Shown here piece after piece: positions 26,420 to 63,428 of a stretch of 64,000 nucleotides of DNA. A program made the translations under genes and the position numbers. This DNA comes from Cyathus striatus (taxonomy: Eukaryota; Basidiomycota; Agaricomycetes; Agaricales; Nidulariaceae): positions 8,184,001-8,248,000 of the forward strand of contig JAOVFP010000001.1 of NCBI GenBank assembly GCA_025738555.1, given 5' to 3'. Each line of letters opens with the position of its first letter. The stretch's first letter is position 1. A model generated the notes under the pieces. That model was given only the letters and a program-made list of their open reading frames with translations, was not told the DNA's origin and did no database searches.

Positions 26420-26469
26420 GGTTTTATTTCTATCCCTAAAATATATACCCGCTACCCACATTCCTTTCA

Positions 26470-33571: not shown

Positions 33572-34757
33572 CATTGGTGAAGTTGTTTAACGTGTAAGGT
33601 AGGAGACACGGAACAAATCAATTATAGATAAGTATAAGTCGTGAGCTTACTACTACCTATATAGCTTCATTTTAACTATCTATAGAACATTGATAACACT
33701 TAAATAAATCTGTAACCAACACTTGTACAGTATCAAATCTGTCTTTTACTGGCAGTGCTAATTAGATGATGTTCTCATCAAAACATATAAGTTTGTACAG
33801 CAGAATTAGACATTTCCCACACTTGTTCAAGTATGTATAATAACGCCATATTTTAAACAGGGTCCATATTAATTGTTCGTTGATCTAGTAGAAGAAGTGC
33901 AAATATTGCAATGGATCTTATATACAAATATTTCAATGAAAGCCCATAAAGCTGATAGTTATTATCATTTAACAGGTGGTTTATAAATCGGGAACATATC
34001 AAAACCACCTCATGATTACGTACGTAATACTTGGATCTTGTTTCGATTGTGTTGTGAAGAAATAAGTCTTGGGGTTGTGTGACGACAGTATTGTATTGGT
34101 GATCAGTTTTACCGCAGGACTGATATTAATGACATGAGACACTTTAAAATTGTAGGCGAAGGGCTACGACGGCGGCCCAAGCAGTGTCACTGCGGCGAGT
34201 TTACGCCTCCCCCAAGACAAGAATAGTGGACACCGGTGATTGTGCGACTAATTGTGCGTATTCGGGTATCAGATCAAGGCCCACCAAAGGCTGTTCAGTG
34301 TTGGTTTAGTATCCTTTTGATTCCACTTGACACTAAGTGCATCGGTCTTCTATTGATTATGTCCAGTACGGCTCTGCCGGCCTTAAGAACACAGCTTGAT
34401 TACAGCATAATAGAATCGCTTGATATTCATGAACTACCTCGGATGCAACTTGCGCCCAACCCCCGCATCCAAATAACAACCTTTGATAGCTTTCCTGTGT
34501 GTGATTCCATCACAGCAGTCAACCAAATTTCTATTGATTAACAAGATAGTCATGTAACCCGTCGGCATTTCAGTGCCTATGATAGAATGTGAATGCAGCA
34601 ACGCTGTAAATAGCCTGCTACGTGTATGGTCCAAAATTGTGCTATGCACAAGCTGTATGTGTACACCGGAGAAGGATAATAGACTCCCACCGAGTTAAAT
34701 TTACTAACAACAAATAGAATTTTAAAATTTTAAAGTTCAAGAACGTTTTAAGCAAGT
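33572..34757. other. Spacer up to the giant element
   Basis: 33,572-33,830 repeats the upstream region of DUF6533-like copy 2. From 33,830 no gene is recognised; the plus-strand frame 34,236-34,541 has no support. The last 8 bp (34,750-34,757) are the candidate target duplication of the giant element. Confidence 0.35.
34750..34757 (+). repeat. Candidate 8-bp target duplication, left
   Basis: AAGCAAGT, identical to 63,421-63,428, directly outside the last base at which the two inverted ends can still be aligned. Outside this word the two flanks share nothing. Confidence 0.5.
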
Positions 34758-35090
34758 CAGATAGGTAGTATGTGATGTGCCGTTCCAGAGTGGTACATAA
34801 AATATACCAAATGACAGGTACATGGGTATGTACCTGTAAACAACCAGGTACATACCCATGTACCTCAACGCACGGTAAGCTAGATATTAGTCAGTGTGAT
34901 GTTTAATAGTAAAACACTTGTAGCGATATAAGACTATATCTGTATTAGGAAAGTGGCCATACTACGCTACATTTTCAAAAAAATAAGAATATGTAGTTCT
35001 ACTAAACTACAATTTTGGCATGCACAAACCACATCCTATGTTCACCTCGACTCCCAAGATATATATAGCAAGTTAGTATAGATTCTAGAA
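34758..35090 (+). repeat. Left terminal inverted region
   Basis: Aligns with the reverse complement of about 63,090-63,420. Shared words include GTTCCA(G/C)A(G/A)TGGTACATA, AGGTACATGGGTATGTACCTG, CGATATAAGACTA(T/C)AT and GTATTAGGAAAGTGG(C/T)CATAC. Identity is around 70-75 percent by eye, with gaps. It contains the hairpin at 34,816-34,865. Confidence 0.6.
34816..34865. repeat. Perfect hairpin, 21-bp arms, 8-base loop
   Basis: Arms 34,816-34,836 and 34,845-34,865 are exact reverse complements built around GGTACATGGGTATGTACC. At the right end of the element the same word occurs twice as a direct repeat (63,312-63,333 and 63,344-63,364) and not as a hairpin. Location near the tip suggests a transposase-binding or end-processing site (inference). 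Confidence 0.6.
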
Positions 35091-38000
35091 TATTATTTTT
35101 TGGTATACTTAGTTGAAAATATGTCTATAGAATGTATAAATTGTAATGTAAAATGTAGTCTATTAGAACTGGACTTGAATAATTGATGCGATGCCCCATA
35201 TATGGACAGATGTGATAAGCGTGAGTTATTTGGGTTGCGCGCGAAAATAACAGATGAGTCAGCACATGAACGCAGCGCGACGAGACTAGATTCCTGCCAT
35301 CTGGTGAATGTGGCGGCAGGAGGCAGGGTCTTCATTTGTAATTTTCGCAATTATTAGTGCATTATGGGGGTGTGTGATATGGAATAATTATACTACGTTA
35401 TATCTACATCTAAATGAACGGATCGTGCGTGTTCTACATTTCTAATAGCGATGTAGAGGATGTAAATTAATGAGGTGGAAGTGGTGCATGTAGACTGGAT
35501 TTACCTTAATTGATGGGATGTTCTATACGCTGACAGAATTGATACGCGTGGTATATTTGTTTTCCTCAATCTGAAAATAACACATGAGTCAGCACATGAA
35601 CCAGCAGCGACGAGACTAGATTCCTCTCATCTGGTGAATGTAGCGGAAGCAGGCAGGTTCTTCGTTTGTAATTTTTCGCATTTATTAGTGCATCATGTGG
35701 ATCTATAACATAGAATAATTACATTGCGAAATATCTACTTCTAACAGAATAGATCCTGTGTTTCCTACATTTATAATAGCGACGTGGATGGTCTTAATGA
35801 ATCAGGAAGAAGTGGTGCATGTAGACTGGATATCCTATGATTGATGCGATGTGCCATATGCCGACAGAAGTGATAAGCGTGGGATATTTGCGTTGCGCGT
35901 TCCGAAAATGACAGATGAGTCAGCACATGAACCCAGCGCGACGAGACTAGATTCCTGTCATCTGGTGAATGTAGCGGAAGCAGGCAAGATCTTCATGTTT
36001 AATTTGTTGTATTTATTTGTGCATTATAGGCATCTATCGTATCGAATAATTATATTATAAAATATATACATCTAACTCAACGGATCATGAGTTTCTTACA
36101 TTTCTAATAGTGAAGTAGATGATCTAAATGAATGAGGAAGAAGTGATGCATGTAGACTGGATATCCTATGATTGATGCGATGTGCCATACGCCGACAGAA
36201 GTGATAAGCGTGGGATATTTGCGTTGCGCGTTCCGAAAATGACAGATGAGTCAGCACATGAACCCAGTGCAACGAGACTAGATTCCTGTCGTCTGGTGAA
36301 TGTAGCGGAAGCAGGCAGGTTTTTCGTTTGTAATTTTTCGCATTTATTAGTGCATTATGTGGATCTATAACATAGAATAATTACATTGCGAAATATCTAC
36401 TTCTAACAGAATAGATCCTGTGTTTCCTACATTTCTAATAGCGACGTGGATGATCAAAATGAATGAGGAAGAAGTGGTGCTTGTAGACTGGATATCATAC
36501 GATTAATGGGATGTGCCATACGCCGACAGAAGTGATAAGCGTGGGATTTGCGTTGCGCATTCCGAAAATGACAGATTAGTCAGCACATGAACCCAGCGCG
36601 ACGAGACTAGATTCCTGTCATCTGGTGAATGTGGCGGAAGTAGGCAAGATGTTCATGTTTAATTTGTCGCATTTATTTGTGCATTATAGGGATCTATCAT
36701 ATGAAATAGGTATATTCTTAAATATCTACATCTATCTGTATGGACCGTGAGTTTCCTACATTTATAATAGAAAAGTAGTGGATGTAAATTAATGAGATAG
36801 AAGTGGTGCATGTAGACTGGATTTACCTTAATTGATGGGATGTGCCATAGGCAGAAAGAATTGATACGTGTGGTATATTTGTTTTCATCGATCTGAAAAT
36901 GACACATGAGTCAGCACATTAACCCAGCGCGACGAGACTAGATTCCTGTCATCTGGTGAATGTAGCTGAAGCAGGCAAGATTTTCATGTTTAATTTGTCG
37001 CATTTATTTGTGCATTATGGGCATCTATCGTATCGAATAATTATATTGTAAAATATCTACATCTAACTCAACGGATCATGTGTTTCCAACATTTCTAATA
37101 GTGAAGTACATGATCTAAATGAATGAGGAAGAAGTGGTGCATGTAGACTGGATGTCCTATGATTGATGCAATGTGCTATACGCGGACAGAAGTGATAAGC
37201 GTATGATATTTGTGTTGCACATTCCGAAAATAACACATGAGTCAGCACATGAATGCAGCGCGACGAGAGTAAATTTCTGTCATCTGGTGAATGTGGCGGA
37301 AGAAGGCAAGAACTTCACGTTTAATTTGTTGCCTTTATTTATGCATTATGGGGATCTATCATATGAAATAGGTATATTCTGAAATATCAACATCTATCAG
37401 TATGGACCGTGAATTTCCTACATTTATAATAGAAAAGTAGTGGATGTAAATTAATAAGATAGAAGTGGTGATCATGTGTTTCCTACATTTCTAATAGCGA
37501 CGTGGATGATCAAAATAAATGAGGAAGAAGTGGTGCATGTAGACTGGATATCCTATGATTGATGCGATGTGCCATACGCCGACAGAAGTGATAAGCGTGG
37601 GATATTTGCGTTTCGCGTTCCGAAAATGTCAGATGAGTCAGCACATGAACCCAGTGCGACGAGACTAGATTCCTGTCATCTGGTGAATGTAGCGGAAGCA
37701 GGCAAGATTTTCATGTTTAATTTATTGCATTCATTCGTGCATTATGGGGATCCATCATATGAAATAGGTATGTTCTGAAATATCTACATATATATATATA
37801 GACTGCTTTTTCTACATTTCTATTAGCGAAGCAGAGGATGTAATATAATGAGGAAGAAGTGGTGCATGTAGACTGGATTTACTTTAATTGATGGGATGTG
37901 CCATAGGCGGACAGAAGTGATAGGCGTGGGATATTTGTTTTCCGCGTTCTGAAAATGACACATGAGTCGGCACATGAACGCAGCGCGATGAGACTGGATT

Positions 38001-41000
38001 CCTGTCATCTGGTGAATGTGGCGGAAGTAGGCAAGAGTTTCATTTTTAATTTTTGCATTTTTTCGTGCATTATGGGGATCTGTCATATGAAATAGGTATT
38101 TTGTGAAATATCTACATCTATCTGAATGGATCGTACAACTCCTACATTTCTAATAGTGAAGTTGAGGATGTAAATTAATGAGGTAGAAGTGGTGCATGTA
38201 GACTGGATTTACCTTAAATGATGGGACGTGCCATAGGCGGACAGAAGTGATAGGCGTGGGATATTTGTTTTCCGCGTTCTGAAAATGACACAAGAGTCAG
38301 CACATGAACGCAGCGCGACGAGACTAGATTCCTGTCATTTGGTGAATGTGGTGGAAGGAGACAAGTTCTTCATTTGTAATTTTTCGCATTTATTGTTGCA
38401 TTATGAGTATGTATAATATCGAAAAATTATACAATGTTATATCTACATCTAATGAACGGATCGTGCGTGTTCTACATTTCTAATAGCGATGTAGAGGATG
38501 TAAATTAATGAGGTGGAAGTGGTGCATGTAGACTGGATATCCTATGAATGATGGAATGTTCCATACGCGGACAGAAGTGATAAGCATGGGATATTTGTGT
38601 TGCGCATTCAAAAAATAACAGATGAGTCAGCACATGAACACAGCGCGACGAGACTAGATTCCTGCCATCTGGTGAATGTGGCGGCAGGAGGCAGGGTCTT
38701 CATTTGTAATTTTCGCAATTATTAGTGCATTATGGGGATGTATAATATGGAATAATTATACTATGTTATATCTACATCTAAATGAACGGATCGTGCGTGT
38801 TCTACATTTCTAATAGCGATGTAGAGGATGTAAATTAATGAGGTGGAAGTGGTGCATGTAGACTGGATTTACCTTAATTGATGGGATGTTCCATACGCTG
38901 ACAGAATTGATACGCGTGGTATATTTGTTTTCCTCAATCTGAAAATAACACATGAGTCAGCACATGAACCCAGCGCGACGAGACTAGATTCCTCTCATCT
39001 GGTGAATGTAGCGGAAGCAGGCAGGTTATTCGTTGTAATTTTTCGCATTTATTGGTGCATTATGTGGATCTATAACATAGAATAATTACATTGCGAAATA
39101 TCTACTTCTAACAGAATAGATCCTGTGTTTCCTACATTTATGACGGCGACGTGGATGATCTTAATGAATCAGGAAGAAGTGGTGCATGTAGACTGGATAT
39201 CCTATGATTGATGCGATGTGCCATATGCCGACAGAAGTGATAAGCGTGAGATATTTGTGTTGCGCGTTCCGAAATGACAGATGAGTCAGCACATGAACCC
39301 AGCGCGACGAGACTAGATTCCTGTCATCTGGTGAATGTAGCAGAAGGAAGCAGGTTCTTCGTTTGTAATTTTTTGCATTTATTAGTGCATTATGGGGATC
39401 TATCATATCGAATAATTATATTGTGAAATATCTACATGTAATAGTGAAGTTTGTGATCTAATGAATGAGGTAAAAGTCATTTCTAATAGCGACATAGGTG
39501 ATCTAAATAAATGAGGAAGAAGTGGTGCATGTAGACTGGATATCCTATGATTGATGCGATATGCCATATGCCGACAGATGAGATAAGAGTGTGATATTTG
39601 TTTTGCGCATTTCATAAATGACACATGAGTCAGCACATGAACGCTGCGTGATGAGACTAGATTCCTGTCATCTGGTGAATGTAGCGGAAGCAGGCAAGAT
39701 CTTCATTTGTAATTTTTTTGCATTTATTAGTGCATTATGAGGATGTATAATATGGAATAATTATATTATGTTATATCTACATCTAACTGAATGGATCGTG
39801 CGTGTTCTACATTTCTAATAGCGATTTAGAGGATGTAAATTAATGTGGTAGAAGTGGTGCATGTAGACTGCATATCTTATGATTGATGCGATGTGCCATA
39901 CACGAACGGAAGTGATAAGCGTGGGATATTTGTGTTGTGCATTCCGAAAATAACAGATGGGTCAGAACAGGAACCCAGCGCGACGAGACTAGATTCCTGT
40001 CATCTGGTTAATGTGGCAGCAGGACGCAGGATCTTCATTTGTAATTTTCACAATTATTAGTGCATTATGAGGATCTATCATATCAAATAATTATATTGTG
40101 AAATATTTACATCTAACTAGGTGTATCGTGCGTTTCCGACATTTCTAATAGCGAAGTCGATAATCTAAATGAATGAGGTAGAAGTAGTGCATGTAGACTG
40201 GATATCTTATTATTGATGGGATGTGCCATACGCGGAGATGTGATAAGCGTGGGATATTTGTTTTGCGCATTCGGAAAATGACGCATGAGTCAGAACATGT
40301 ACACAGCGCGATGAGACTAGATTCCTGTCATCTGGTGAATGTAGCGGAAGGAGGCAGGATGTTCATTTGTAATTTTTCGCATTTATTAGTGCATTATGGG
40401 CATCTATCGTATCGAATAATTATAGTGTGAAATATCTACATCTAACTCAACGGATCATGTGTTTCCTACATTTCTAATAGTGAAGTAGATGATTTAAATG
40501 AATGAGGATGTGGTGCATGTAGAGTAGATATCCTATGATTGATGCGATGTGCTATACGCCGACAGAAGTGATAAGCGTGGGATATTCGTGTTGCGCATTC
40601 CGAAAATAACACATGAATCAGCACATGAATGCAGCGCGACGAGACTAGATTCATGTCATCTGGTGAATGTGGCGGAAGTAGGCAAGATGTTCATGTTTAA
40701 TTTGTCGCATTTATTTGTGCATTATAGGGATCTATCATATGAAATAGGTATATTCTGAAATATCTACATCTATCTGTATGGACCGTGAATTTCCTACATT
40801 TATAATAGAAAAGTAGTGGATGTAAATTAATGAGATAGAAGTGGTGCATGTAGACTGGATTTACCTTAATTGATGGGATGTGCCATAGGCAGAAAGAATT
40901 GATACACGTGGTATATTTGTTTTCATCGATCTGAAAATGACACATGAGTCAGCACATGAACCCAGCGCGACGAGACTAGATTCCTGTCGTCTGGTGAATG

Positions 41001-42110
41001 TAGCGGAAGCAGGCACGATCTTCATGTTTAATTTGTCGCATTTATTTGTACATTATGGGCAGCTATCGTATCGAATAATTATATTGCGAAATATCTACAT
41101 CTAACTCAACGGATCATGTGTTTCCTACATTTCTAATAGTGAAGTAGATGATCTAAATGAATGAGGAAGAAGTGGTGCATGTAGACTGGATATCCTATGA
41201 TCGATGGGATGTGCTATACGCGGACAGATGTGATAAGCGTGTGATATTTGTGTTGCGTGTTCCGAAAATAACACATGAGTCAGCACATGAATGCAGCGCG
41301 ACGAGACTAGATTCCTGTCATCTGGTGAATGTGGCCGAAGGAGACAAGATCTTAATTTTTTAATTTTCGCATTTTTCAGAGCATTATGACGATCTATCAT
41401 ATAATATCATTATATTGTGGAGTATCTGCATCTAACTTAATGGATGGTGCGTGTTCTACATCTCCAATTGCAAGGTAGAGGATGTAAATTAATAAGGTAG
41501 AAGTGGTGCATGTAGACTGGATAACCTAAGATTGATGGGATGTGCCATACGCGGACAGATTTGATAAGCGTCGGATATTTGTTTTGGTGTTCTGAAAATC
41601 ACAGATGAGTCAGCACATGAGCAGGGCGCAATAAGACTAGATTCCTGTCATCAGGATAATGTAGCGGAAGGAGGCAGGATCTTCGTTTGTCATTTTTCGC
41701 ATTTATTAGTGAACTATGGATATCTATCACATGGAACAATTATGTTGTGAAATATCTACATGTAACTGAATGGAACGTGCATTTCCTACATTTCTAATAG
41801 CGAAGTAGAGGCTTTAAATTAACGAGGAAGAAGTGGTGCATGTAAACTGTATATCCTATGATTGATGGGATGTGCCATGCGCGAACAGATGGGATAATCG
41901 TGGGATATTTGTTTTGCGCATTCCGAAAATGACACATATGTGAGCACATGAACGCAGCGCGACGAGACTAGATTCCTCTCATGTGGTGAATGCGGCAGAA
42001 GAAGGTAAGGTCTTAATTTTCACTTTTCGTATTTATTATTGCATAATGGGGATCTATCATATAGATTACATATATTGTGAAATATTTATAGTGTGATGAT
42101 TCCCGTGTTA
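35091..42110 (+). repeat. 331-bp satellite array, left arm
   Basis: About 21 tandem units with a period of 331 bp (for example 35,851 to 36,182), some truncated or shortened (near 37,470 and 39,440). Marker words in each unit are GTGGTGCATGTAGACTGGAT, CAGCACATGAA, GCGACGAGACTAGATTCCTG and CATCTGGTGAATGT. Many units keep a 60-75-codon open frame from the same position, but frame length and content vary and no initiation or splice context supports it. Confidence 0.85.
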
Positions 42111-42367
42111 TTTTTATCTTGAGCATTCAGAGAACAACAGATTTCTAATGCCTTTGCCAATCATGTACAAATAACGCTCATTTGCTGAGGTATCGCTCGC
42201 CGACACTCCAACATTTATTAGGGCGTCGTTCTGCTTTATCTTAAGCAATAATTATAGAGATAATGTTTGTGATAGCGAACTACGTGATTACTTATTCCAG
42301 CAATTTCAAGAAATACATTATTTGTCATTTATTTTATATTACATCTATTGTTCGTTCTGCGTATCAA

Positions 42368-43467
42368 TCATATTTTTAAATAATGTATGTCGTAATCTTC
42401 CTGCCTCCAAACTACCTTCCAGTCCGGCTTCGATGTGCTCCATTCTTCGTACATTCCATCGTAATCAAAACGAACCCCTGTCAGCTTCTTACCCACTTCA
42501 TTCAAGTTGTATTCTCCTCTTGAAGACGGCAACCATCCATTAACACCACTGGACCGTATTCTGTACCAGCCAGAGATATCTTCTTCGGTAGATGGGACTT
42601 CCTGTTCGACATTGGTGCTGGATGCCGGAGGTGGCGTTGGCGGAGTCTTTTGGGTTACGAGGTCCTCCCAAAACCTTTCCAACATTGGGGGCGCAGGAAA
42701 TTCGGACGCCAATTGTTGTGCTTCATTGCTCCACTGCAAGTATTGGTCAACATCATATGTGTCGTCGACCAGACCATACATCTGAAGTATTTCCTTATCA
42801 AACAACCCTATGATGTGCGAGTCGAGGGCCGGAACTACAATTTTTAGAATAAAGAGCGCATAGCGCGCATATTCAAAATTGAGGTACAGATACCGCGCTA
42901 CAACGGGAGGATTACCATACTCCAGTAGTATGGACATATCTGCATAATTGGTGTTAATTCAATTCGTAATCTATTATAATATATTCTTACTTTCGTGGAT
43001 AATGTCGCGGCTCATGACAGGAAGGAGGGCGAGTTTTGGATGACTTCCTATCCCATGACAGTTCTGTATTCCTTCAATACTGCATCGAGAACAGTTAGGG
43101 GGGCCGTGGACGAAGTCAATTGTACAGGTCTCCTCTACCAGAACGTGAAAGTAGACTTAGTATAATCAGCATTTAATTGACTCGATTGACATACCTGCTT
43201 GAAGCATTTATCGCACGCATTCCTCCTCGTGTACTCTCTCAGTTCATTAACTATATTTTTCAGCGTACGCCAGACGGGAGTCACGCCTTGCCCCAAATTG
43301 GAGTACGGCTGCACATAGGGTCCCTAATGATCAACCAGTTAGACAAGACGCGCTCCGAGAATAAGGCTCACTTGAATGGTGTTGAGAATGAAGCTCCGGA
43401 GTGGCCCTTTCTTCATGCCGACCGCATAAAAATATTGAGGGACCTTGGTGGAGATAGTTTCCTGCAT
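42368..43467 (-). CDS. Cysteine-cluster protein, copy 1
   Basis: Unrecognised family, three members in this element. Exons 43467-43372, 43323-43195, 43132-42991 and 42939-42368 join in phase to 312 residues (introns 48, 62 and 51 bp). N terminus: FYAVGMKKGPLRSFILNT. Then comes a six-cysteine cluster, CDKCFKQETC then CSRCSIEGIQNC, with spacing like a zinc-binding module. A helical middle follows (FEYARYALFILKIVVPAL), then an Asp-rich start of the C-terminal domain (DDTYDVDQYLQW), a Pro/Ser linker, and a conserved end, EWSTSKPDWKVVWRQEDYD. The intact frame over four exons and the matching exon pattern in copy 3 argue that it is a real gene. It has no signal peptide or clear membrane segment. 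Function unknown; DNA or protein binding is a guess from the cysteines. Confidence 0.75.
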
Positions 43468-43499
43468 GCTGGCGAGACTGGAAGTAGATACTGAGAGAG

Positions 43500-43735
43500 G
43501 GTGGGTTGGTGTAGGGAGATAGTGAGTCGGGAAGTGACGAGGACGAGTGTTTTAAGAGGATGGGTTGGTGTACGGAGGAAGGAATAGAGAGCAGGGAAGT
43601 TACGAGGACGAGTGTTTTGATGTGCAACTGAGCTGGATATGTCCGTGTTTCAGGGATACGAGTTAAAACACTACGGCTCACCAAAGATGTGCCTAAATTC
43701 AAGTTTTCCTTGTTTTCCTCTAGCCTATTAGTATC
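43500..43735 (-). promoter_or_regulatory. Shared upstream motif of the paired genes
   Basis: Read on the minus strand, the block around 43,610-43,675 contains ATCCCTGAAACACGGACATA followed by TCCAGCTCAGTTG and AAAACACTCGTC. The same words in the same order lie upstream of copy 3 at 56,177-56,230. A 60-bp tandem duplication (GGGTTGGTGTA at 43,502 and 43,562) lies between this motif and the start codon. Likely promoter of the family. Confidence 0.55.
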
Positions 43736-43980
43736 ACCGAGACATGTAATGTGAGACGATGCCGGATATAGATTATCTATTTTAAGTAATTCTAACGGGA
43801 CCAGATAAAGACCAGTATAGTAATAGCTCCGATGGGGCTTGTTTCGTCGTATCTATGTGTTCTCCATTTGAAGTCGTCGCATCCACAGAGAAAACTGCCC
43901 TTCATTTGCCGCTGTAACGACAAAAGGAAGCAAAGATAGCTGTACTATGGTGACAAAGTGTCAAACATTATTTTCTACAT

Positions 43981-44866
43981 TTAATACACGCCGCTATCGA
44001 AACTAAAATCCACTAATCGTAGTCCTTTGTTGTGTATACATTCAAACAACATCCTTCTATAAGTTAGTACCTCTTCTTTAGGTGGCAACCATTGAAGAGC
44101 TTTACGTGCCGTCCATCCTATGTAGTCATATCCTTCGGGATCGTCATCGGGTAGAATTAATTTATTTGCCAGAAGGACTGATACCGGGAGTTGCTGCAAT
44201 CGTCGAAGAGAAGGAACAACTTCCTCAATGAGGTAATATATATATCGATAGAACTCTGCCCACCGATACCGATCAGCGTACCGGTGGCTTGCATAGGGTT
44301 GTAGGCAAAAAGTATACAATTCGCATCTTAAAAATTTTCTTAGTTATGAAAGTTAAAATAAATGGTGTGTCGAATGAAGACTTACTGTTATTTGTTACTT
44401 CGATTGCGTGACGAGGCAAAATGTGTAGAGGTGGAACTTTAAAGATATTAGCCATCTCGGCTGGAAATTTGCAATTGATTCGATGTTCTATTTCACATTG
44501 ATAACAATATGTATATGGATGCTCGAAGTCAAACCGACAGAAATTATTTGAAGCGATGCATGTCCGACAACGCCGTGAACGATGGAAGCGTATGAAGAAT
44601 TTTAGCAATTTATCGACGATCCAGAACGGCGACAATTGTATCACCCTTGGTGGGCGGAACTCGGTCAAATGCTAGACGGAAATTAGCGTATGTAAACGGA
44701 GGGGATTGAGAGATCTTACCCTTGTCGTGTACAAGGTAAAAAGTTGGAGGCGTGGGAAATCAACGTCGAAGTCGATGTAATTTCGGGAATCGTTTTCATC
44801 AGAAGTAAGGTACCAAGGCATGCTCAAGAGTAGATGGAATGGAGAATGGTCAGTGCAGCCCTTCAA
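43981..44866 (-). CDS. Cysteine-cluster protein, copy 2 (possible frameshift)
   Basis: A diverged relative of copies 1 and 3 in the element core. Exon 1 (from 44866, or the inner Met at 44821) reads MPWYLTSDENDSRNYIDFD. A 47-bp intron leads to an exon with the cysteine cluster CRTCIASNNFC then CYQCEIEHRINCKFP. The last exon has RWAEFYRYIYYLIEEVVPSL and DDPEGYDYIGWTARKALQWL, matching the YARYALFILKIVVPAL and YDVDQYLQW regions of copy 1. Across the second intron (GTAAGT donor near 44,388) the phases do not match with either visible acceptor, so a one-base frameshift or a different splice is needed. It also lacks the terminal WKVVW block. It may be a pseudogene or a shorter divergent family member. 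Confidence 0.5.
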
Positions 44867-45138
44867 TTTATATCGTTTTTTATATTCATGCGGAACAGTT
44901 CACCATTTTCCCTCGAGGTAAGTCAATCTGAATATAGTTATCGGAGAATTTTAAGGAACGTATTAAGTCCACACATCGAGCATATTGCAAACATCCATAA
45001 TGGGACATAGACATCAACAAATCGAAACATGAATTCTATTTTGGGTCAACGGACATACATCCACACATGCGTTGCCATGCACACTACACAGGGTCCTTCT
45101 GCAGACAAATAGGGAAGCAAGCTCCCCCAATTATTAAA

Positions 45139-49890: not shown

Positions 49891-50102
49891 TTACTCGTAT
49901 ATCTCTCTGTGTGTTCATCTCTGCGCATTGCGTGTAAATCTTGACATCGACTTCAAGCTCAAGCAGTACAAAATCAGCGAATACCTCATAATATTTAGTG
50001 TGTACTCCTTTTTCTTAGCATAGTCATCCACAAACGGCACGATTCACGAGATCTCTAATTTATTAGCGTTATAATTGAAGAAACACTAGTAAGCAGCACT
50101 AT

Positions 50103-51748: not shown

Positions 51749-52203
51749 GGAGGAATGGATAAGAAGTGAACAGACGGAGTAAAGGTGAGAGGTATTTTTT
51801 GGCAGCGGAAAAACAGACCAAGGCAAGTATAAGGCACAATTTGTGCAGGATGATATGGTACCTGTTTTCTGTTTCTTACTTCGACACTAAGTGCCAATAT
51901 CAGAGGCATACAAATGCAAATATGCGCTGATCAGATTGTACACGGGAAATGGTCGCGCTTGATACCTATAGGGTAAATCAAGTTTCAAATGTCAAAAATA
52001 ATAGTTATTCTTATTCAAACACTGTATCTTCTTACTTCGACACTAAGTGCCAATATCAGAGGTATACAGATGCAAATATGCGCTGATCGGATTGTACACG
52101 GGAAATGATCGCACTTCATACCTAGTAAATCGAGTTTCAAGTGTCAAAAAGAATAGATATTATTTTTGAAGCACCGTGTCGTTTCTTACAACTATCTCTT
52201 GCA
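51749..52203. promoter_or_regulatory. Divergent promoter region with 156-bp duplication
   Basis: Lies between the leftward zinc/coiled-coil gene and the rightward transposase gene. Two tandem copies with a 156-bp period (51,875-52,030 and 52,031 to about 52,185) each contain CTTACTTCGACACTAAGTGC, ATGCAAATATGCGCTGATC and TGTACACGGGAAATG. A duplicated control region for both genes is likely. Confidence 0.5.
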
Positions 52204-55200
52204 ATGTCCTCCATTCCACGTAAACGTCGCGAGCGATTTAAGGAGCCAGAGGAGATCAAATGTATCCCGGGATTATATGCTGAAAGAGAACCAGAAAGGA
52301 TAGTGCGTGCCCCAGGACTTTTTAAATCCTCAACGCTATCATTATCGTCATTTTTGTCGGCTTCAGCGTCTGTGTCGGTTTCGTCATCTGGGCCTTATGA
52401 GCCAGTCTCATCCCCTCAAAAAAAACAGCGATTGGTGAAGAACCCACGCTCTAATACTGGTCAACATCGATCACGCAACCCTATGTCTGTGTCGAGGAAT
52501 GATGAAGTATCCAGTGAATTAGTTCAGATTATCCACGGAGGTTCAGATGTGCTCCAGGAATATGACAATGGTCTACCATTGTGGTCTGATTGGACGCATG
52601 AAGAATACATTCTCAATAATTTTCCCTTCCTAAATGACGGCAGTGTGCCTTTCAGTGAAGTAGATCTCGACGACATCTTTTATTCGTACCATGTCAGCGT
52701 GTTTTACGGTGGGATTGGTTTTGAACGAGTTAGCAAGGAGTTGTTTCTTGTTCAAGGTTGGGATTCCACAAAGAATAACAGTATGCCAGTAAGTGGTTCA
52801 TAGATCTATCTTCTGTGTACGGTATTACTGATGACCAAAATTTAGAATCGTTGGTTTCATCTGCAATGGTGGCTAGTGGATGGAGATATGACTGCAGTGT
52901 GCACCTGCAATTCCAAAAAGTCACCTTGCGTACATGCTAAATTTCTGTATGTCTTTGGTAAGGAAAGGTTCTCGAATAGTAATGAAATTCCCAATGGTAT
53001 TTTTTCGCAACTTCAACACATATCCCATAACTAACTCGTTCATATAAAGTACCTTCTGATGTGACACTGTTTCATCGCGAAATATTTCCAGAGTCGAATA
53101 CATCGTATCATTTGTTTTCAGTGAATACGGGAGCAGGTCTCCTTGATCGAATTATTATATCACATGAAGGCTTGGACGACGGTAGTGGCAGCTGGGAATG
53201 CCAAAAATGTAACCTGTCAATGTGCCCGCATATTATTAAAACGCGGCACAAGCTCCAGCAAATCCTGCACTGCAATCCTGAGGCACGAGATGACATTGCA
53301 CTCAATTACGACCTCTTGGAGAACTCAAGTGAGCTAATATTTCATACATGTTTCCCTTCTGACACGTTCCATACAAGGTCAACAATTCCACTCTGATTCT
53401 GATCCAGACAAAGGGATATCGTATCTACCGATAATGCCTCCTAGCTGGGCGCGTTTGGAAACAGACGCCAAGCTCTACCATAAAAAGCCAAGGCCACTAC
53501 CTCCACCACCTCTTCTTATTGAATTAGGTGAACATATGCGGTGTATATGCGGTTCTGGACTTGAAAATTCAGGACCAATGGTGATCAAATCATGTACTGT
53601 ATACGGGCTTAGCGGTGCACATGTGACCGAAATTCAACTTCGGAAGTGTAACAACTGTCTTTGCTCAGACCGATTCATCGGTCCCGACTGCAGAGATATC
53701 GAAATCCTGAATCTCAATAACCGTTACTTATTTACACATGAGCTTCTGGAGCGCTATACATCGGCTTACACCATTTCTCCTACTCCTTTCGTGGCTTTTC
53801 GTTTTGGAAGTCAGTCGTGGTTACGCAGATAATGGAACCGGGATCCCTTTCGTCAATGATTTCATCTTCCGTGCCGCTTGGTTCACATATGCCGATCTCT
53901 TATGTTTAGAAAATGATATGCGGTGTCATATCTGCGGTCCGGCTCCAGATAATGTAATTTTTGATGGCGTCTCCATCTCGTTCAGCCGCAAGCAGCTCCG
54001 TTCCTCCATTAAGCCACCGACAGCTATATCACCACATTCGGAACGAAAAGACAAAGTGTCTTATGTCAGCAAGCAGCAGCTCATACTGGACCGTAAGCTA
54101 CGGAAACTAATACGTACCGTCATGACCAAAAAAACGCATCTTAATAATTCTTTCATTCGTGGTGATGACGAAGAAAGTATGCTTTTGCAACTACCTGACG
54201 TCAATCCGGCATTGGGACGTCTAGCGGCACGTTTATTCATGGGAGACACTTGGCCAGACGATAGTTATGTCTATTTGTTTTCGGAGGTTCGGATATCATT
54301 ATCTCAGTAAATATTTAGATATTAACTATTGTTTCAACAGATAGCAGCAGAAGAATCGATTGTACAGATGGTGAACAGGCTTGGCTACGACGCCCTTAGA
54401 AATTTCAATCACACGAAAAGTGACGACGCCCTCTCTCGATTGGTAAACATTCCATCAATCTATCTGGTTTTACGACATGAATATACCAAAGAAAACACAT
54501 ATTCGGAAGACCTAATTGATGTTTGCATCTGGATAGAAAGCCGTGCACATGAGACGTTGGATAAGCTTATAGCGCAAAGTCTGTCTACTCAATCTAGTCC
54601 TGTTTCGGAAACTCCAAAAGATGACTGGAAATTGGTAAGTGTCTGTTTTCGCTTAATCATTTTCTTTCTTTGCGACCCGTAATATTAGACAGGTAGTTGC
54701 TACAGCATGCCGCAGATACGACATAGGCCAATCTATCCTGGGTTGAAACACGATAGGTCACAAGATAAAGGTGGACAAGACCGGGGTGCTGAGTGTTCGA
54801 AGTACTATGCTCAGTACTCGCCCCAACGCCTGACCAGAGGAATCATGGCCGCCTGGTGTACACATTCCATTTGCTATGGTTTTCATTCTATGCCAAGCAG
54901 CGAAGGCCGTGATGATGTTTTCTCGGCTCTCTATACACGATGGAGAGTTCCACCAAAGCGGGTGATTTATGACTTCGCTTGTGCTCTGGGTCCTTACTGT
55001 ATGACACGAGAAGGGGATTTTTTTTCCGAGACTAAGTTTCTAATTGACCACTTCCATGCCGCAGGTCATAAAAAATGTTCAACAGCCTGCTTTCTGAAAC
55101 GATCCGTTACTGCAGATCCCCGATTAAAAGGTCTCAACTCGAGTGCCGCCGAGTGTGGTAACTCAGTGATGGCGCGTATCCGCAAGTCAGTCAGCTACAT

Positions 55201-55306
55201 GGGGCAATACCGTGCTACATTGTACATGAAGACTTTTCTTTGTATCTGGAACTGCACCAAAATGCAAAAGCTCGCTGGATATAATGCAGTGCATAATAGT
55301 AGTTAG
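52204..55306 (+). pseudogene. KDZ-like transposase with one apparent frameshift
   Basis: Resembles KDZ-superfamily transposases of the kind with cysteine clusters. Exons 52204-52788, 52846-52996, 53050-53328, 53378-54286, 54341-54634 and 54689-55306 give about 945 residues. Order: Ser-rich N terminus; SWIM-like cluster VCTCNSKKSPCVHAKF; CQKCNLSMCPHIIKTRHKLQ; a CxC segment (MRCICGSGLE ... LRKCNNCLCSDRFIGPDC); CHICGPAPDNVIFDGVSISF; then the catalytic half with RPIYPGLKHD, VIYDFACALGPYC, FLIDHFHAAGHKKC and LNSSAAECGNSVMARIRKSV, which supply candidate Asp/Asp/Glu residues. Near 53,800 the frame must shift by one base between TPFVAF and VLEVSRGYA, with homology-like sequence on both sides. No intron explains it. 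All else is intact, so this is a very recent lesion or a sequence error. The fourth donor (GTTCGG) is unusual. Confidence 0.65.
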
Positions 55307-56244
55307 GAATACTATTATTCTTCGTTGTGGTAATCTGTTGACATGGACAATTAAATAATTTGATTAGCCGTTTGCAAGGCAATGAATAAAATATGTATGT
55401 CACGGGTGCATAGATACGGAAAATTGAAAAGATGGCAGTGATATCTCGTTGATATGTCGAAAGGGTTACAATGCGGCATTCTGTGAGCTGACCTCGAAGC
55501 TATGCCAAGAAAAGATAAAATAAGGGGTGATAACAAAAGATAATCGACTTGAATGATGAGCTATACCGGAAAAAAAAAATCGGAAAGGCATGGTGTAAGA
55601 AATATGTACCATCAAGGGTATAGAAATTTGAAGAAATTGAAAAAGATGGCGGCAATGTGGCGTTGATATGTCAAAGGAGAAAAATAACGGTGTTCTGTGA
55701 GTTGAATTGCTATACCCAGAAAAGATAAAATACCGGTGATAAAAAAATGATAATAGATGCTAAGCTATAACCAGAAAAGAGAAAATGACCGTGTTCGATG
55801 ACTTCAATGATTCTCAAGAGAAATAATTCGGAATAATCCGAAATGCGGATTTGTTGTTCTGGTAACATGCCCGTATGTCGCTAGTTCGATGACTCCAATG
55901 ATTCTCAAGAGAAATAATTCGGAATAATCCGAAATGCAGATTTGTTGTTCTGGTAACATGCATGTATGTCGCTATGAGGCTAATAAGGTAAAGTGGCTTC
56001 GATCGCACCTGTTGGTTCTCAAACATACATACTTCTAATGAGAAAAAGCTACAGAGAAACCTTATCGTACAGAAGTGCACTACGTCACCTTGCGAATCCT
56101 GCATAAAGTTCGGAAGTACTGATTCACGCGAATCTTTATTTGGTAGCAGTACGTAACGCCGTTTTTTTAACTCTTATCCCTGAAACACGGACATATCCAA
56201 CTGAGTCTGTCATGTACTAAAACACTCGTCAGTGTCCTTTATAG
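55307..56244. other. Spacer with 91-bp tandem duplication
   Basis: Downstream of the transposase. 55,794-55,884 is repeated at 55,885-55,974 with few changes (GATTCTCAAGAGAAATAATT and the palindromic CGGAATAATCCG in each). Before it, a looser repeat of GAAAAGATAAAATA-type words occurs at 55,510, 55,720 and 55,775. The final 80 bp carry the promoter motif shared with copy 1 (see 43,500-43,735). Confidence 0.5.
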
Positions 56245-57306
56245 ATGTCTTTCAACGTACTCCCGACCTCCAAATCTTTTTTCCCATACCCACCCAACAT
56301 GTCCAGCAACCAATTCCAAAATACAAGGGCGTTCTTTTACGCAGTTGGAATGTCAGAGGGTCCCTTGAAATCGTATATAATCAACTCTACGAAAGTAAGT
56401 TAATTTTCGTGAGTATGTTTAATCATACGCTCACGGTTTTCAGTTCCCAACATGCCTTTTTGCCCTCGACTACCCCGACGAGGATTCAATCGTTACCTCG
56501 CGGTTGCGTCGCGAGGTGAACGAAATAGAAGATTATATCAACAAAGTAACGTGCGACGATTGTCATACTGACGGTATGGAAATCCTGTATTCTAAATGTG
56601 ACAATATTTACTTAACATATGCTCATAGATGCTGATTGTGTCGTGGCTTTTGGAAATCATGGCCCGACCTGTGAAAGGTGCAAATCGCGGGATAACGACA
56701 AGAGCTGCTTGGCGGACGATTGCTGGATTCCAGAAATGGACTTTCTACCAGCGAAGAGTCTAAGAGAATACGTTAAAAGTACGTTTGGTTTCTTTCATGT
56801 TATTACCACAAATAATAACGTGAAATTATATAGATATCCTTGTTTTAAACAAGTACAGGATAACACCACAGATCGCACGATACCAATACACGCATTACGA
56901 AACCGCGCGATACGCGCATTATCTTATCGAAATTGTTTTACCGTCGTTAATCAACCACATACGCATGGTTGGAAGCTTGGAGTCACTACAAATGAACAAT
57001 ATCATCGACTCAGATTTCAACTACGATGATTTTAAGAAATGGGCCGACGACATCACATCGCTTCTACGACAATTACCCCGCAAGAACGAATTGGAGGTAT
57101 TTTGGAGGAACCTTTCAAAGAACAACACGGCATTGTCGCCACAGCCTCCATCGACTCAAACAACGTCTTCAGCATGGGGTAATTTTAACAAAATGGGATT
57201 AGAACTATTCCGAATCAGGTATGACCAGACAGAGATGCATGACGACTGGAGGAAACCACTTCCGGAATGGAAAGTGGTATGGTCGAGGAGTGATTACAAC
57301 TTCTAA
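56245..57306 (+). CDS. Cysteine-cluster protein, copy 3
   Basis: Paralogue of the gene at 42,368-43,467, in mirror orientation at the other end of the element core. Exons 56245-56394, 56444-56573, 56629-56778 and 56834-57306 join in phase to 300 residues; introns are 49, 55 and 55 bp. N terminus FFYAVGMSEGPLKSYIINST matches FYAVGMKKGPLRSFILNT. Cysteine cluster: CDDCHTDDADC then CERC and a further Cys. Then YETARYAHYLIEIVLPSL, DFNYDDFKKWADDI and the terminal EWKVVWSRSDYNF. All three intron positions match copy 1. Divergence at protein level is high (roughly 35-40 percent identity by eye) while the structure is kept, so the pair is old and under constraint. Function unknown. Confidence 0.75.
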
Positions 57307-57419
57307 AGGAGATCGGTCGTCAGTGTCGTTGTATCATATTGTGTCTACTGTGTCTACTGTACAGTTCTGGTGATGTAATAAATGTAGAATATCTTGCCTC
57401 CTACCGCCACCTTGTTGAG

Positions 57420-60400
57420 ATGACAGAAGGTTAGTCTCATCGCGCTGGTTCCAGATGTTGACTCATCAGTTGGTGTGTGAAATTTTAAAGCATAAAATAA
57501 CACGGTTATCACATTTGTCAACATATGTCATATACCATCAATCATGGGAAATCTAGTCTACATGCACCACTTCTACCTCATTAACGTAGATCATCTATTT
57601 CACCGTTAGAAATGTAGGATAGACTGGAGCCGTTCAGAGAGATGTAGATATTGCTTAATATATATTTTTCATAAGATAAAGTCGGATAATGCGCTGATGT
57701 GTATGAAACATTTAAAAATAAATAACTTGCCTCCTTCCGCCACATTCACCAAATGACAGAAAGCTAGTCTCGTCGCACTGGTTTTAAATGCTGACTCATC
57801 TGTTCTTTTTCTGAATGCTCCGGACAAATATCACACGGTAATCATCATACCGTTAATTCATTTTTCCGCATATGTCGTATAACATTAATTATGGTGCATC
57901 CAGTCTACATGTGCTACTTTTACCTCATTAATGTAGATCCTCTACTTCTTTATAATAAAAATAAGATACACTGGTGCCGTTCGAATATACATAGATATTT
58001 CTCAATATATTGCTACATAAGATAAAGCTAGGTCCCTATAATGCACAAATAAATGCGACAAATAAAATATGAAAATATTGTCTCCTTCCGCCACATTCAC
58101 CAGATGACAGGAATCTAGTCTCGTCGCGCTGCGTTTATGTGCTGACCCCTGTGTCATTTGAAAACGCAAAAAAGGTCCCCATAATGCACTAATAAATGCG
58201 AAAATTAAAAATGAAGATCTTGCCTCCTTCCGCTACATTCACCAGATGACAGGAATCTAGTTTCGTCGCGCTGGTTTTAATTTCCGATGCATCTGTCATT
58301 CTCAGAACACGGAAAACAAATATCCCATGCATATCACTTCTGTCTGCATACGGCACATCCCATCAATCATAGGATATCCAGTCTATATGCACCATTTCTA
58401 CCTCATTAATTTACATCCTCTATTTTGCTATTATAAATGTAGGATACGCATGATCCTTTAAGATAAATGTAGATATATCACAATATACCTATTCCATATG
58501 ATAGATCCCTATAATGCACTAATAAATGCGATAAATTACAAATGAAGATCTTACTTCCTTCCGCCACATTCATCAGATGACAGGTATCTAGTCTCGTCGC
58601 GCTGCGTTCATGTGCTGACTCGTGTGTCATTTTCAGAACGCAGAAAACAAATATCCCACGCCTATCACTTCTGTCCGCCTATGGCACATCCCATCAATTA
58701 AGATAAATCCAGTCTACATGCACCACTTCTACCTCTTTAATTTACATCTTCTACTTTTCAATTATAAATGTAGGATATTCACGGTCCATACAGATAGATG
58801 TAGATATTTCAGAATATACCTCTTTCATATGATAGATCCCCATAATGCACGAATAAATGCAAAAAATTAAACTTGAAAATCTTGCCTCCTTCCGCTACAA
58901 TCATCATATGACAGGAATATAGTCTCGTCGCGCTGCGTTCATGTGCTGACTCATGTGTCATTTTCAGAACGCGGAAAACAAATATCCCACGCCTATCACT
59001 TCTGTCTGCCTATGGCACATCCCATCAATTAAGGTAAATCCAGTCTACATGCACCACTTCTATCTCTTTAATTTAAATCCTCTACTTTTCAATTATAAAT
59101 GTAGGATATTCACGGTCCATACAGATAGATGTAGATATTTCAGAATATACCTCTTTCATATGATAGATCCCCATAATGCATGAATAAATGCATAAATTAA
59201 AAATGAAAATCTTGCCTCCTTCTGCTACAATCATCATATGATAGGAATATAGTCTCGTCGCGCTGCGTTCATGTGCTGACTCATATGTCATTTTCAGAAC
59301 GCGGAAAACAAATATCCCACGCCTATCACTTCTGTCCGCCTATGGCACATCCCATCAATTAAGATAAATCCAGTCTACATGCACCACTTCTACCTCTTTA
59401 ATTTACATCCTCTACTTTTCTATTATAAATGTAGGATATTCACGGTCCATACAGATAGATGTAGATATTTCAGAATATACCTCTTTCATAGGATAGATCC
59501 CTATAATGCATGAATAAATGCAAAAAATTAAACTTGAAAATCTTGCCTCCTTCCGCTACAATCATCATATCATAGGAATATAGTCTCGTCGCGCTGCATT
59601 CATGTGCTGACTCATATGTCATTTTCAGAACGCGGAAAACAAATATCCCACGCCTATCACTTCTGTCCGCCTATGGCACATCCCATCAATTAAGATAAAT
59701 CCAGTCTACATGCACCACTTCTACCTCTTTAATTTACATCCTCTACTTTTCAATTATAAATGTAGGATATTCACGGTCCATACAGATAGATGTAGATATT
59801 TCAGAATATACCTCTTTCATAGGATAGATCCCTATAATGCACGAATAAATGCAAAAAATTAAACTTGAAAATCTTGCCTCCTTCCGCTACAATCATCATA
59901 TCATAGGAATATAGTCTCGTCGCGCTGCATTCATGTGCTGACTCATATGTCATTTTCAGAATGCGGAAAACAAATATCCCACGCCTATCACTTCTGTCCG
60001 CCTATGGCACATCCCATCAATTAAGATAAATCCAGTCTACATGCACCACTTCTACCTCTTTAATTTAAATCCTCTACTTTTCAATTATAAATGTAGGATA
60101 TTCACGGTCCATACAGATAGATGTAGATATTTCAGAATATACCTCTTTCATATGATAGATCCCCATAATGCACGAATAAATGCAAAAAATTAAACTTGAA
60201 AATCTTGCCTCCTTCCGCTACAATCATCATATGATAGGAATATAGTCTCATCGCGCTGCATTCATGTGCTGACTCATATGTCATTTTCAGAACGCGGAAA
60301 ACAAATATCCCACGCCTATCACTTCTGTCCGCCTTTGGCACATCCCATTAATTAAGATAAATCCTGTCTACATGCACCACTTCCACCTCATTAATTTACA

Positions 60401-63030
60401 TCCTTTACTTCACCATTAGAGATGTAGGACTAGGACGATTCATTCAGATAGATATAGATATTTCAGAATATACCTCTTTCATATGATAGATCCCCATAAT
60501 GCACGAATAAATGCAAAAATTAAAAATTAAAATCTTGCCTCCTTCCGCTACAATCATCATATGACAGGAATATAGTCTCGTCGCGCTGCGTTCATGTGCT
60601 GACTCATGTGTCATTTTCAGAACGCAGAAAACAAATATCCCACGCCTATCACTTCTGTCCGCCTATGGCACATCCCATCAATTAAGGTAAATCCAGTCTA
60701 CATGCACCACTTCTACCTCTTTAATTTACATCCTTTACTTCACCATTAGAAATGTAGGACTCGTACGATTCATTCAGATAGATGTAGATATTTCAGAATA
60801 TACCTATTTCATATGATAGATCCCCATAATGCATGAATAAATGCATAAATTAAACTTGAAAATCTTGCCTCCTTCCGCTACAATCATCATATGACAGGAA
60901 TATAGTCTCATCGCGCTGCGTTCATGTGCTGACTCATATGTCATTTTCAGAACGCAGAAAACATATATCCCACGCCTATCACGTCTGTCTGCCTATGGCA
61001 CATCCCATCAATTAAGGTAAATCCAGTCTACATGCACCACTCCCACTTCATTAATTTACATCCTCTACTTCGCTATTAAAAATGTAGGAAACACACAGTC
61101 CATTCAGATAGATGTAGATATTTCAGTATATACCTCTTTTATATGATAGATCCCCATAATGCACAAATAAATGCAAAAATTAAACATGAAACTCTTGCCT
61201 CCTTCTGCTACAATCATCATATGACAGGAATCTAGTCTCATCGCGCTGCGTTCATGTGCTGACTCATCTGTTATTTTCGGAATGCGCAACACAAATATCC
61301 CATGCTTATCACTTCTGTCCGCATATGGCACATCCCATCAATCATAAGATATCTAATCTACATGCACCACTTCTACCTCATTAATTTACATCCTCCAAAT
61401 CGCTATTAGAAATGTAGAACACGCACGATCCATTCAGTTAGATGTAGATATAACATAATATAATTATTCCATATTATACATCCTCATAATGCACTAATAA
61501 ATGCGATAAGTTACAGTTGAAGATCTTGCCTCCTTCCACCACATTCACCAAATGACAGGAATCTAGTCTCGTCGAACTGCATTCATGTGCTGACTCATCT
61601 TTCATTTTCGGAACGCGCAACACAAATATCCGACTCTTATCACATCTATCCGCGTATGGCACATCCCATCAATCATAGGATATCCAGTCTACATGCACCA
61701 CATCTTCCTCATTCATTTAGATCATCTGCTCCGCTATTAGAAATGTAGGAAACACACGATCTATTCCGTTAGATGTAGATATTTCGCAATATAATTATTC
61801 TATGTTATAGATCCACATAATGCACTAATAAATGCGATAAATTACAAACGAAGAACCTGCTTCCTTCCGCTACATTCACCAGATGACAGGAATCTAGTCT
61901 CATCGCGCTGCGTTCATGTGCTGACTCATCTGTTATTTTCGGAATGCGCAACACAAATATCCTATGCTTATCAGTTCTGTCCGCGTATGGCACATCCCAT
62001 CAATCATAGGATATCCGGTCTACATGCACCACTTCTACTTCATTAATTTACATCCTCTACGTCGCTATTATAAATGTAGAATAACTACGATCCGTTAATT
62101 TAGATGTAGATGGAATATAATATAATTATTCCATATTATACATCCTCATAATGCAACAATAAATGCGAAAAATTATAAATGAAGGACTTGTCTCCTTCCG
62201 CTACATTCACCAAATGACAGGAATCTAGTCTCGTCGCGCTGCGTTCATGTGCTGACTCATCTGTTATTTTCGGAATGCGCAACACAAATATCCTATGCTT
62301 ATCAGTTCTGTCCGCGTATGGCACATCCCATCAATCATAGGATATCCGGTCTACATGCACCACTTCTACTTCATTAATTTACATCCTCTACGTCGCTATT
62401 ATAAATGTAGAATAACTACGATCCGTTAATTTAGATATAGATATAATATAATATAATTTTTCCATATTATACATCCTCATAATGCAACAATAAATGCGAA
62501 AAATTACAAATGAAGGACTTGTCTCCTTCCGCTACATTCACCAAATGACAGGAATCTAGTCTCGTCGCGCTGCGTTCATGTGCTGAGTCATGTGTCATTT
62601 TCGGAATGCGCAACACAAATATCTCACGCTTATCACATCTGTCCGCGTATGGCATGTCCCATCAATCATAGGATATCCAGTCTACATGCACCACTTCTAT
62701 CTCGTTAATTTACATCCTCTACATCGCTATTAGAAATATAGAACACTCACGATCCATTCAGTTAGATGTAGATATAACGTAATATAATTTTTCCATATTA
62801 TACATCATCATAATGCACTAATAAATACGAAAAATTACAGATGAAGAACCTGCCTACTTCCGCCACATTCAGCAGATGACAGGAATCTAGTCTTGTCGCG
62901 CTGCGTTCTTGTGCTGACACATCTGTCATTTTCGGATCGCGGAAAACATATATCCCACGCTCACCACATCTGTCCGTATATGGATCATCCCATCAATTAT
63001 TCCAGTCCAGTTCTTATAGACTACATTTCA
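57420..63030 (-). repeat. 331-bp satellite array, right arm
   Basis: About 17 units of the same satellite in inverted orientation (CAGTCTACATGCACCAC, CGTCGCGCTG). The period is exactly 331 bp in the outer part (61,474; 61,805; 62,136; 62,467). Units at 58.6-61.1 kb are a more homogeneous sub-family, showing recent local expansion. The innermost units (57,480-58,300) are shorter and more diverged. The minus-strand frames of 60-75 codons recur as in the left arm. Confidence 0.85.
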
Positions 63031-63089
63031 CGTTACAATTTATACATTCTACAGACACATGGTCAACTAAGTGAACCGCAAAATAATAT

Positions 63090-63420
63090 TCTAACATTTA
63101 TAGTAGCTTGATATTCAAATTTTGGGTGTCGAGGTGAGAACAGGATGTAGTTCATGCACGTTAAAATTGTGGTCTAGCTGAACCACATATTTATAATTTT
63201 GACAATGTGGCGTAGTATGACCACTTTCCTAATACAAATGTAGTCTTATATCGCCACATGGGTTTCAGTATTAAACATTGCACTGACTAATTACTACATT
63301 ATGTTAGGTCCAGGTACATACCCATGTACCTCTAAGTGTTAGAGGTGCATACCCATGTACCTCTCGTTTGGCTCAATCTATGTACCATTGTGGAACCACA
63401 CATATTCCGCTACATGCCTC
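63090..63420 (-). repeat. Right terminal inverted region
   Basis: Reverse-complement counterpart of 34,758-35,090. Contains two direct copies of the GTACATACCCATGTACCTC word (63,315 and 63,346) where the left end has an inverted pair. The outermost bases (read inwards GAGGCATGTAGCGG) match the left tip only loosely. Confidence 0.6.
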
Positions 63421-63428
63421 AAGCAAGT
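63421..63428 (+). repeat. Candidate 8-bp target duplication, right
   Basis: AAGCAAGT, identical and in the same orientation as 34,750-34,757. Confidence 0.5.

Follow-up and report, generated by a model that had tools for sequence, protein, structure and literature searches.

A probable KDZ transposon with inverted satellite arms in the genome of Cyathus striatus

The window analyzed here is a 64,000-nucleotide stretch of Cyathus striatus DNA (C1:8184001-8248000, from a 107-Mb genome of 24 contigs). Between two copies of the 8-bp sequence AAGCAAGT (34750-34757 and 63421-63428), it contains one transposon of 28,663 bp (34758-63420). The left terminus at 34758 reads CAGATAGGTAGT and the right terminus at 63420 reads GCTACATGCCTC, with GAGGCATGTAGC as the terminus on the minus strand. 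The two terminal regions (34758-35167, + strand; 63008-63420, - strand), delimited by end alignments and, on the left, by the satellite start at element position 411, form the non-satellite part of the terminal inverted repeats (TIRs). Inward of them lie two arrays of a satellite with a 331-bp unit, the left arm (35168-42088, +) with 19 near-full units and the inverted right arm (57440-63007, -) with 16. A core of about 15 kb between the arms carries a transposase gene (52204-55306, +) and spliced cargo genes named a, b and h. We consider it very probable that this is a complete DNA transposon of the KDZ superfamily, in which the ends and satellite arms move as one with the core genes and the transposase and duplicate 8 bp of the target. 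A sequence-only reading of this DNA had proposed a single mobile unit with the satellite arrays as its inverted arms, and the copies, their target duplications and the empty sites lacking arms and core largely uphold that proposal.

The boundaries are defined by end searches and by copies elsewhere in the same genome. Copies are labeled by contig (C8, C11 and so on), and the two subfamilies, A-type and B-type, are told apart by the left end. Genome searches with either end score the best candidates only, so that copy numbers are lower bounds; 18 copies, the window included, were read at both ends, and at least four further apparent end pairs exist. An 8-bp target-site duplication (TSD) is found in 17 of these 18, perfect in 15 and with one mismatch in two (C8, C18), and the TSD-bearing copies range from 17,553 to 37,719 bp. 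The direct repeat that had been noticed outside the element is thus joined by the duplications of other copies, which the same reading had suggested to seek by end search. The single AAGCAAGT pair is weak evidence on its own, because the 8-mer recurs on the + strand at 20199 and 20519 of the window. The flanking DNA differs between the copies read, right up to the termini, and right-end matches mostly terminate at query position 340-344, where position 341 corresponds to 63420. The inverted alignment of the two element ends extends over 419 bp with 79.5% identity, longer than the 330 bp or so first noticed. The ends of the other copies are alike, apart from one chimera on C12.

Empty sites had been set beforehand as one test of this proposal. 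We compared the joined flanks of seven insertions with the genome, and four of them (C11, C3, C4, C8) have dispersed relatives running through the junction. All seven relatives that were fetched lack the element (97.8, 97.2, 97.0, 87.2, 87.2, 85.5 and 84.6% identity). The target is present once in them, with its exact letters in the three best ones (two for C11 and one for C3) and with two to three of its eight letters changed in those of C4 and C8, which are 85-87% identical. Among the matches listed, no junction-spanning relative was found for the window's own site, C9 or C1b. Arms and core are absent together from the empty-site relatives, and therefore they moved together. Nested insertions into dispersed repeats supply these ready-made empty sites. 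The copy at C11:2177775-2206332 is inserted in a dispersed repeat that has relatives of about 97% at C7:3662002 and C12:3182977.

Tandem Repeats Finder calls the 331-bp satellite at 35182-42085 (+) and, inverted, at 58030-62999; a profile widens both calls, to 411-7331 (+) and 22683-28250 (-) in element coordinates. The opposite orientation of the arrays, already noticed in the window, is a constant feature: in all eight fully read copies the left array begins at element position 411 and the units point inward from both ends. In these copies the left array holds 9-19 near-full units and the right array 8-16, and the arrays span 3.3-9.0 kb, the longest with inserted DNA. Most window units find best matches of 94-100% in most of the six other A-type copies, with the order largely kept, and blocks of units are missing in some A-type copies relative to the window. 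Because units match between copies largely in order and blocks are missing, the arrays move along with the element and change through gain and loss of units. For units of the B copy, the best matches among A units reach 82-92%, and their order is not kept. Units of one element are on average 82% identical within an arm and 81% identical across its two arms, and the two arms of the window show inverted similarity over 4.6 kb at 82%. A satellite 30-mer is present at 573 genome places with three mismatches allowed (control, 0). The 100 places listed form 29 clusters by our own grouping, and 27 of these have a core gene no more than about 10 kb away. Judged from these 100 of 573 places, the satellite without the core, a concern of the sequence-only reading, looks rare.

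The transposase gene is modeled with six exons, and its product has 944 amino acids in related copies. In the window copy, the frame of exon 4 is shifted; seven other copies covering the site agree with one another and differ in length from the window. The gene had been described as transposase-like and KDZ-like, and Pfam matches in the open reading frames (ORFs) of the window bear this out (CxC4, E 1.2e-29; KDZ, E 1.5e-6; both above cut-off). The KDZ domain (PF18758) in the ORF at 54689-55303 scores 28.5 bits versus a cut-off of 26.6. CxC4 (PF18717) scores 103 bits in the window ORF and 120 bits in the spliced protein of copy C1a (C1:279252-302353, B-type), versus a cut-off of 26.9. Seven homologues were found in Agaricales at 30-40% identity (Mycena citricolor, 40%; Marasmius, Paramarasmius and Leucocoprinus, 30-33%). 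Comparison by eye with the Mycena relative P0001 shows counterparts of the stretches IFDGV, VIYDFACALG and AECGN, which may hold the catalytic D, D and E residues. A query with the last exon finds 71 places in the genome, fragments included.

Close to the termini, a near-palindromic 20-bp repeat occurs twice per end. On the left, AGGTACATGGGTATGTACCT (34816-34835, +) is followed by a second copy (34846-34865, -) that makes a perfect 20-bp inverted repeat with it; on the right lie an inner copy (63312-63331, -) and an outer copy with one mismatch (63343-63362, -). The offsets, positions 59 and 89 on the left and 59 and 90 on the right, are the same in 8 of 8 copies. The window has four matches and 100 shuffles have none, with none expected by chance; elsewhere in the eight fully read copies, no further match was found at four mismatches. 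We regard these paired repeats as candidate transposase sites. A DDE-type KDZ transposase from the core would bind the terminal 410 bp or so, most likely at these repeats, and would act by cut and paste at the CAG/GAG termini of the element. What it recognizes is probably not the satellite sequence itself, because the arms of a sister lineage consist of an unrelated satellite.

Two results go beyond the sequence-only reading, namely the recombined cores and ends described here and the sister lineage described below; the shifted transposase frame of the window had also escaped that reading. Copy C1a has a perfect TSD and termini homologous to those of the window (left-left 89.8%, right-right 92.9%, left-right about 80%). 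Its core matches window 42086-57206 at about 93% in reversed direction relative to the termini, and lacks about 1.1 kb present in the window at 48.8-49.9 kb. Scored by place and strand of the termini, transposase and gene a, in copies with both ends in the lists, the transposase has the normal orientation in 15 of 15 A-type copies and the reversed one in 6 of 6 B-type copies, of which C1a was read through and five were inferred by position. The TSD-less element at C12:3959729-3981544, the one exception among the 18 copies, has two left-type ends, an A-type left end on one side and a B-type left end on the other, and the flanks GAACTTTC and GCTGGGTC. This chimera is the product of an end exchange between elements. 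The inverted core and the exchanged end would both reflect recombination between arms (REARRANGEMENT through the arms).

A second KDZ group in the same genome, with a transposase exon about 67-77% identical to that of the window family, yields the result that surprises most and is at the same time the least complete. In the sister copy at C16:88000-126999, arrays of an approximately 320-bp unit are inverted on both sides of the transposase gene. The window-satellite profile gives no match on the sister satellite, and the two consensus sequences align with a score of 21 versus a mean of 20.9 for pair-block shuffles; the two satellites are unrelated. Among the matches listed, nine sister KDZ places that have satellite no farther than about 30 kb away follow one orientation rule relative to the gene, with arrays on both sides at C16, C19, C4 and C12 and on one side at the other five (C5, C9, C6 and two on C2). 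An end search found no TIR or TSD for the sister element on C16, where one side may be truncated. The inverted-arm architecture seems to outlive its sequence. We take the units of 331 and about 320 bp to be close to twice the nucleosome repeat. Some sister-type satellite clusters have no KDZ match nearby among the matches listed. At C9:3803945-3827653, sister-type arrays lie in both orientations with no KDZ match nearby, being either core-less derivatives or free satellite.

Could the arrays lie outside the mobile unit, as an ordinary genomic satellite hit by a small KDZ element or as an assembly artefact? The two of 29 listed clusters with no core gene nearby are what such an origin would lead one to expect. 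The TSDs, however, stand outside the arrays, the empty-site relatives have neither arrays nor core, the arrays start at position 411 and face inward in every fully read copy, and their units correspond between copies largely in order. For the copies examined this explanation is refuted, and in general we find it extremely improbable. Several observations do weigh against a KDZ element with two subfamilies of opposite core orientation. All comparisons of copies, empty sites and satellite come from one genome of one strain. The KDZ score of the spliced C1a protein is 24.7 bits, slightly below the cut-off of 26.6. The transposase is open throughout in none of the nine copies read, several of which have deletions and one of which, the C13 fragment, is partial, with a match in its 3' part only; assembly errors may account for part of the broken frames. 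At C7:4642296-4673157 and C8:2044763-2051626, two copies with one end in the lists, the core appears to stand in normal order beside right ends that are 85-86% like that of the window, and therefore the split into two subfamilies is incomplete. A flip of the core through the arms would be the simplest route between the two forms, because the termini are homologous end for end, the core is colinear but reversed and inverted satellite stands on both sides. The same facts speak against the idea that the reversed form is ancestral and the window form derived, or that the ends were swapped in another way, with no flip through the arms. The present data fit either direction of change, which leaves this idea some room; we regard it as unlikely.

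What the arms do is a separate question. They may be a sequence-independent inverted structure, which would help distant ends to meet or would act through double-stranded RNA or heterochromatin, or they may be DNA that expands passively; under both views, core inversion and end exchange are likely to have taken place through them. A structure maintained for transposition, to bring together ends 30 kb apart, or for persistence is favored by the occurrence of arms in all eight fully read copies and, as an unrelated satellite of similar period and the same inverted layout, in the sister KDZ copy, with one orientation rule at the nine listed places. Yet the number of near-full units varies from 8 to 19, the sister termini were not found by end search, and the sister-type clusters without a nearby KDZ match in the lists fit a functional role poorly. 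We keep it as a serious possibility, leaning slightly to the negative. Passenger arms, grown from inverted seed repeats by unequal exchange and kept alike by conversion, are given an even chance in our judgement. Blocks of units do differ between close copies, and for Galileo, tandem repeats and exchange have been put forward as the way in which TIRs grow (PMC3573991). Under the passenger idea, nevertheless, it takes a coincidence or a shared cause for two unrelated satellites within one transposase clade to have arrived at one architecture and at similar periods. The wider proposal is that, in one KDZ clade, selection maintains the arms as part of the machinery and leaves their sequence free. 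Lineages would fill one structural slot with unrelated satellites of about 320-331 bp, because a long structure of inverted tandem repeats is what counts, be it for joining ends 30 kb apart or for chromatin or double-stranded RNA, and the same arms would permit core flips and trading of ends; we put this forward tentatively and rather doubt it as a whole.

The differences between copies carry a record of age. In the transposase gene, CpG transitions account for 265 of the 323 differences from a seven-copy A-type consensus, and CpG mutation is eroding the copies. Across nine regions of the core, each compared in 5-7 copies, non-CpG substitutions amount to 0.08-0.41% per site per copy; in all nine, the fewest CpG changes are those of the window copy. 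These values suggest a recent burst followed by methylation-type decay. Nonsynonymous and synonymous divergence (dN/dS) between the A consensus and C1a is 0.0042/0.095 in exon 6, 0.0127/0.067 in exon 4 and 0.026/0.082 in exon 1 of the transposase, and 0.060/0.261 in the last exon of gene a. As dN is lower than dS in the three exons and in gene a, purifying selection acted while the lineages spread, and since this selection is seen between two subfamilies, gene a is probably useful to the element. Of the 25 places at which the last exon of gene a is covered completely or almost so, 18 have an open frame. We rejected this as a sign of selection after insertion, as the consensus last exon offers no CpG transition that makes a stop. 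CpG transitions in that exon are 27 changing and 24 silent, with 31 and 23 sites available. In exon 6 of the transposase, there are 25 changing, 22 silent and 10 stop-making transitions (40, 19 and 5 sites), fewer changing than the sites predict; exon 4 has no such deficit (26, 9 and 1; 23, 12 and 1 sites). We draw no conclusion from this contrast. The gene h consensus contains two stops, the choice of frame having been unsuccessful.

Genes a and h face outward at the edges of the core, have similar exon structure and are paralogous with gene b. Gene a (42371-43467, -; four exons modeled by eye, last exon 42371-42958) reads towards the left end, and gene h (56299-57306, +; also four exons by eye) towards the right end. 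Gene b (43984-44900, -) is a diverged paralogue of both with a partial model. A 25-bp promoter motif lies upstream of a (43634-43658, -) and of h (56175-56199, +), with two occurrences in the window and none in 100 shuffles, so the paralogous genes in opposite orientations with a shared motif, as first described, stand. The last exon of gene a is 28-37% identical to the genome's h copies (34% within the window). Among 306 candidates, no relative of gene a was found at E 0.001, and gene h has eight relatives, all Cyathus striatus proteins, the best-scoring at 75%; compared piece by piece with the genome, this protein reaches at most 88%. On this one element gene alone, the host would probably be a bird's-nest fungus distinct from the sequenced C. 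striatus. AlphaFold prediction of the gene h family (Cyathus protein P0008 and 10 other rows) gave a mean predicted local distance difference test score (pLDDT) of 52. No credible Pfam family was found for the cargo ORFs scanned, and paired cysteines seen by eye in the cargo proteins suggest zinc binding. Most genome matches of a and h fall inside these elements; a few gene a fragments (e.g., C1:6756219, C6:6403768, C4:6604310, C12:4132612) have no end or transposase match nearby among the matches listed. The cargo genes a, b and h are nearly confined to these elements. The core further contains ORFs with no credible Pfam family match at 45142-46359 (-), a possible gene c, and at 50103-51886 (-), where 51129-51363 and 51404-51635 form a 75% duplicate. 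An internal tandem array of a 208-bp unit lies at 46353-47495, with 5.5 copies in the window and 3.5 in C1a.

By domain and TSD, the element is classed as a KDZ element, one that would work like a foldback element. In Cryptococcus, KDZ1 is described as about 11 kb long with 241-bp TIRs and 8-bp TSDs, KDZ2 as about 9.2 kb with 139-bp TIRs, and KDZ3 as about 10 kb with 169-bp TIRs and 4-8-bp TSDs (PMC12810828). Set against that description, the Cyathus element shares with KDZ1-3 a KDZ catalytic domain with a zinc cluster, TIRs and 8-bp TSDs, and differs in its size of 17.6-37.7 kb, CxC4 instead of CxC1, kilobase arms of 331-bp satellite and inverted cores. Kyakuja and Zisupton elements of Agaricomycetes that carry TET/JBP are reported as KDZ elements with extra genes, Zisupton making 8-bp TSDs and two Kyakuja families having 7-bp TSDs and no TIRs (PMC12730594), unlike the 8-bp TSD and 419-bp inverted end alignment here. 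The term 'tandem repeat' does not occur in the main text of that paper. The 8-bp TSD is as reported for Zisupton and a Dileera family, and Zisupton is also reported in a nematode (PMC9297572). Starships are described as giant cargo-carrying fungal DNA transposons, in a basidiomycete as well (PMC13066641). They use a tyrosine recombinase captain, in contrast to the KDZ transposase here. Among the core ORFs scanned with Pfam, some small ORFs lying outside the scan, neither a TET/JBP match nor a tyrosine recombinase captain was found. The Starship captain is a DUF3435 protein.

The foldback-type feature, long TIRs with internal tandem repeats, is present as the inward 331-bp arrays on both sides in 8 of 8 copies. 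Galileo of Drosophila (P superfamily) is described with long, internally repetitive TIRs of variable length and with chimeras that combine TIRs of two subfamilies and non-matching flanks, a parallel to the C12 chimera (PMC3573991). In the same account, Galileo has a P-type transposase and a 7-bp TSD, so that the Cyathus element, with a KDZ transposase and an 8-bp TSD, would work alike and is not a member; the longest TIRs in D. mojavensis are about 1.2 kb in copies without transposase, whereas here arrays of 3.3-9.0 kb flank the transposase gene. Tetris, a foldback element of Drosophila virilis, carries about 220-bp tandem repeats inside its TIRs; it appears to be non-autonomous, and large satellite arrays are built from its repeats as well (PMC4079207), while 27 of 29 listed clusters here lie near core genes. 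The sequence-only reading had found the architecture unfamiliar. This holds for the KDZ family, for which the literature searched (titles and abstract beginnings, with most subscription journals not covered) describes no satellite-armed element; it does not hold in general, as similar arms built from satellite are known from foldback elements of some animals.

Outside the element, two ORFs at 2229-3785 (-) match successive parts of DUF6589 (PF20231; E 1e-39 and 3e-35) and appear to be pieces of one gene left of the element. An ORF at 27132-27989 (-) has a weak DDE_Tnp_4 match under the cut-off (E 9e-4) and is possibly a fragment of another DNA transposon. Tandem repeats with a 149-bp unit occupy 21661-22429.

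Our findings show that KDZ elements can reach 17-38 kb as single mobile units, and that a transposon can move and multiply satellite DNA as its arms. These arms accompany core inversion and end exchange, and they are likely sites of chromosome rearrangement. Two unrelated satellites in one structural position offer a testable case for selection on the architecture of a repeat, not on its sequence.

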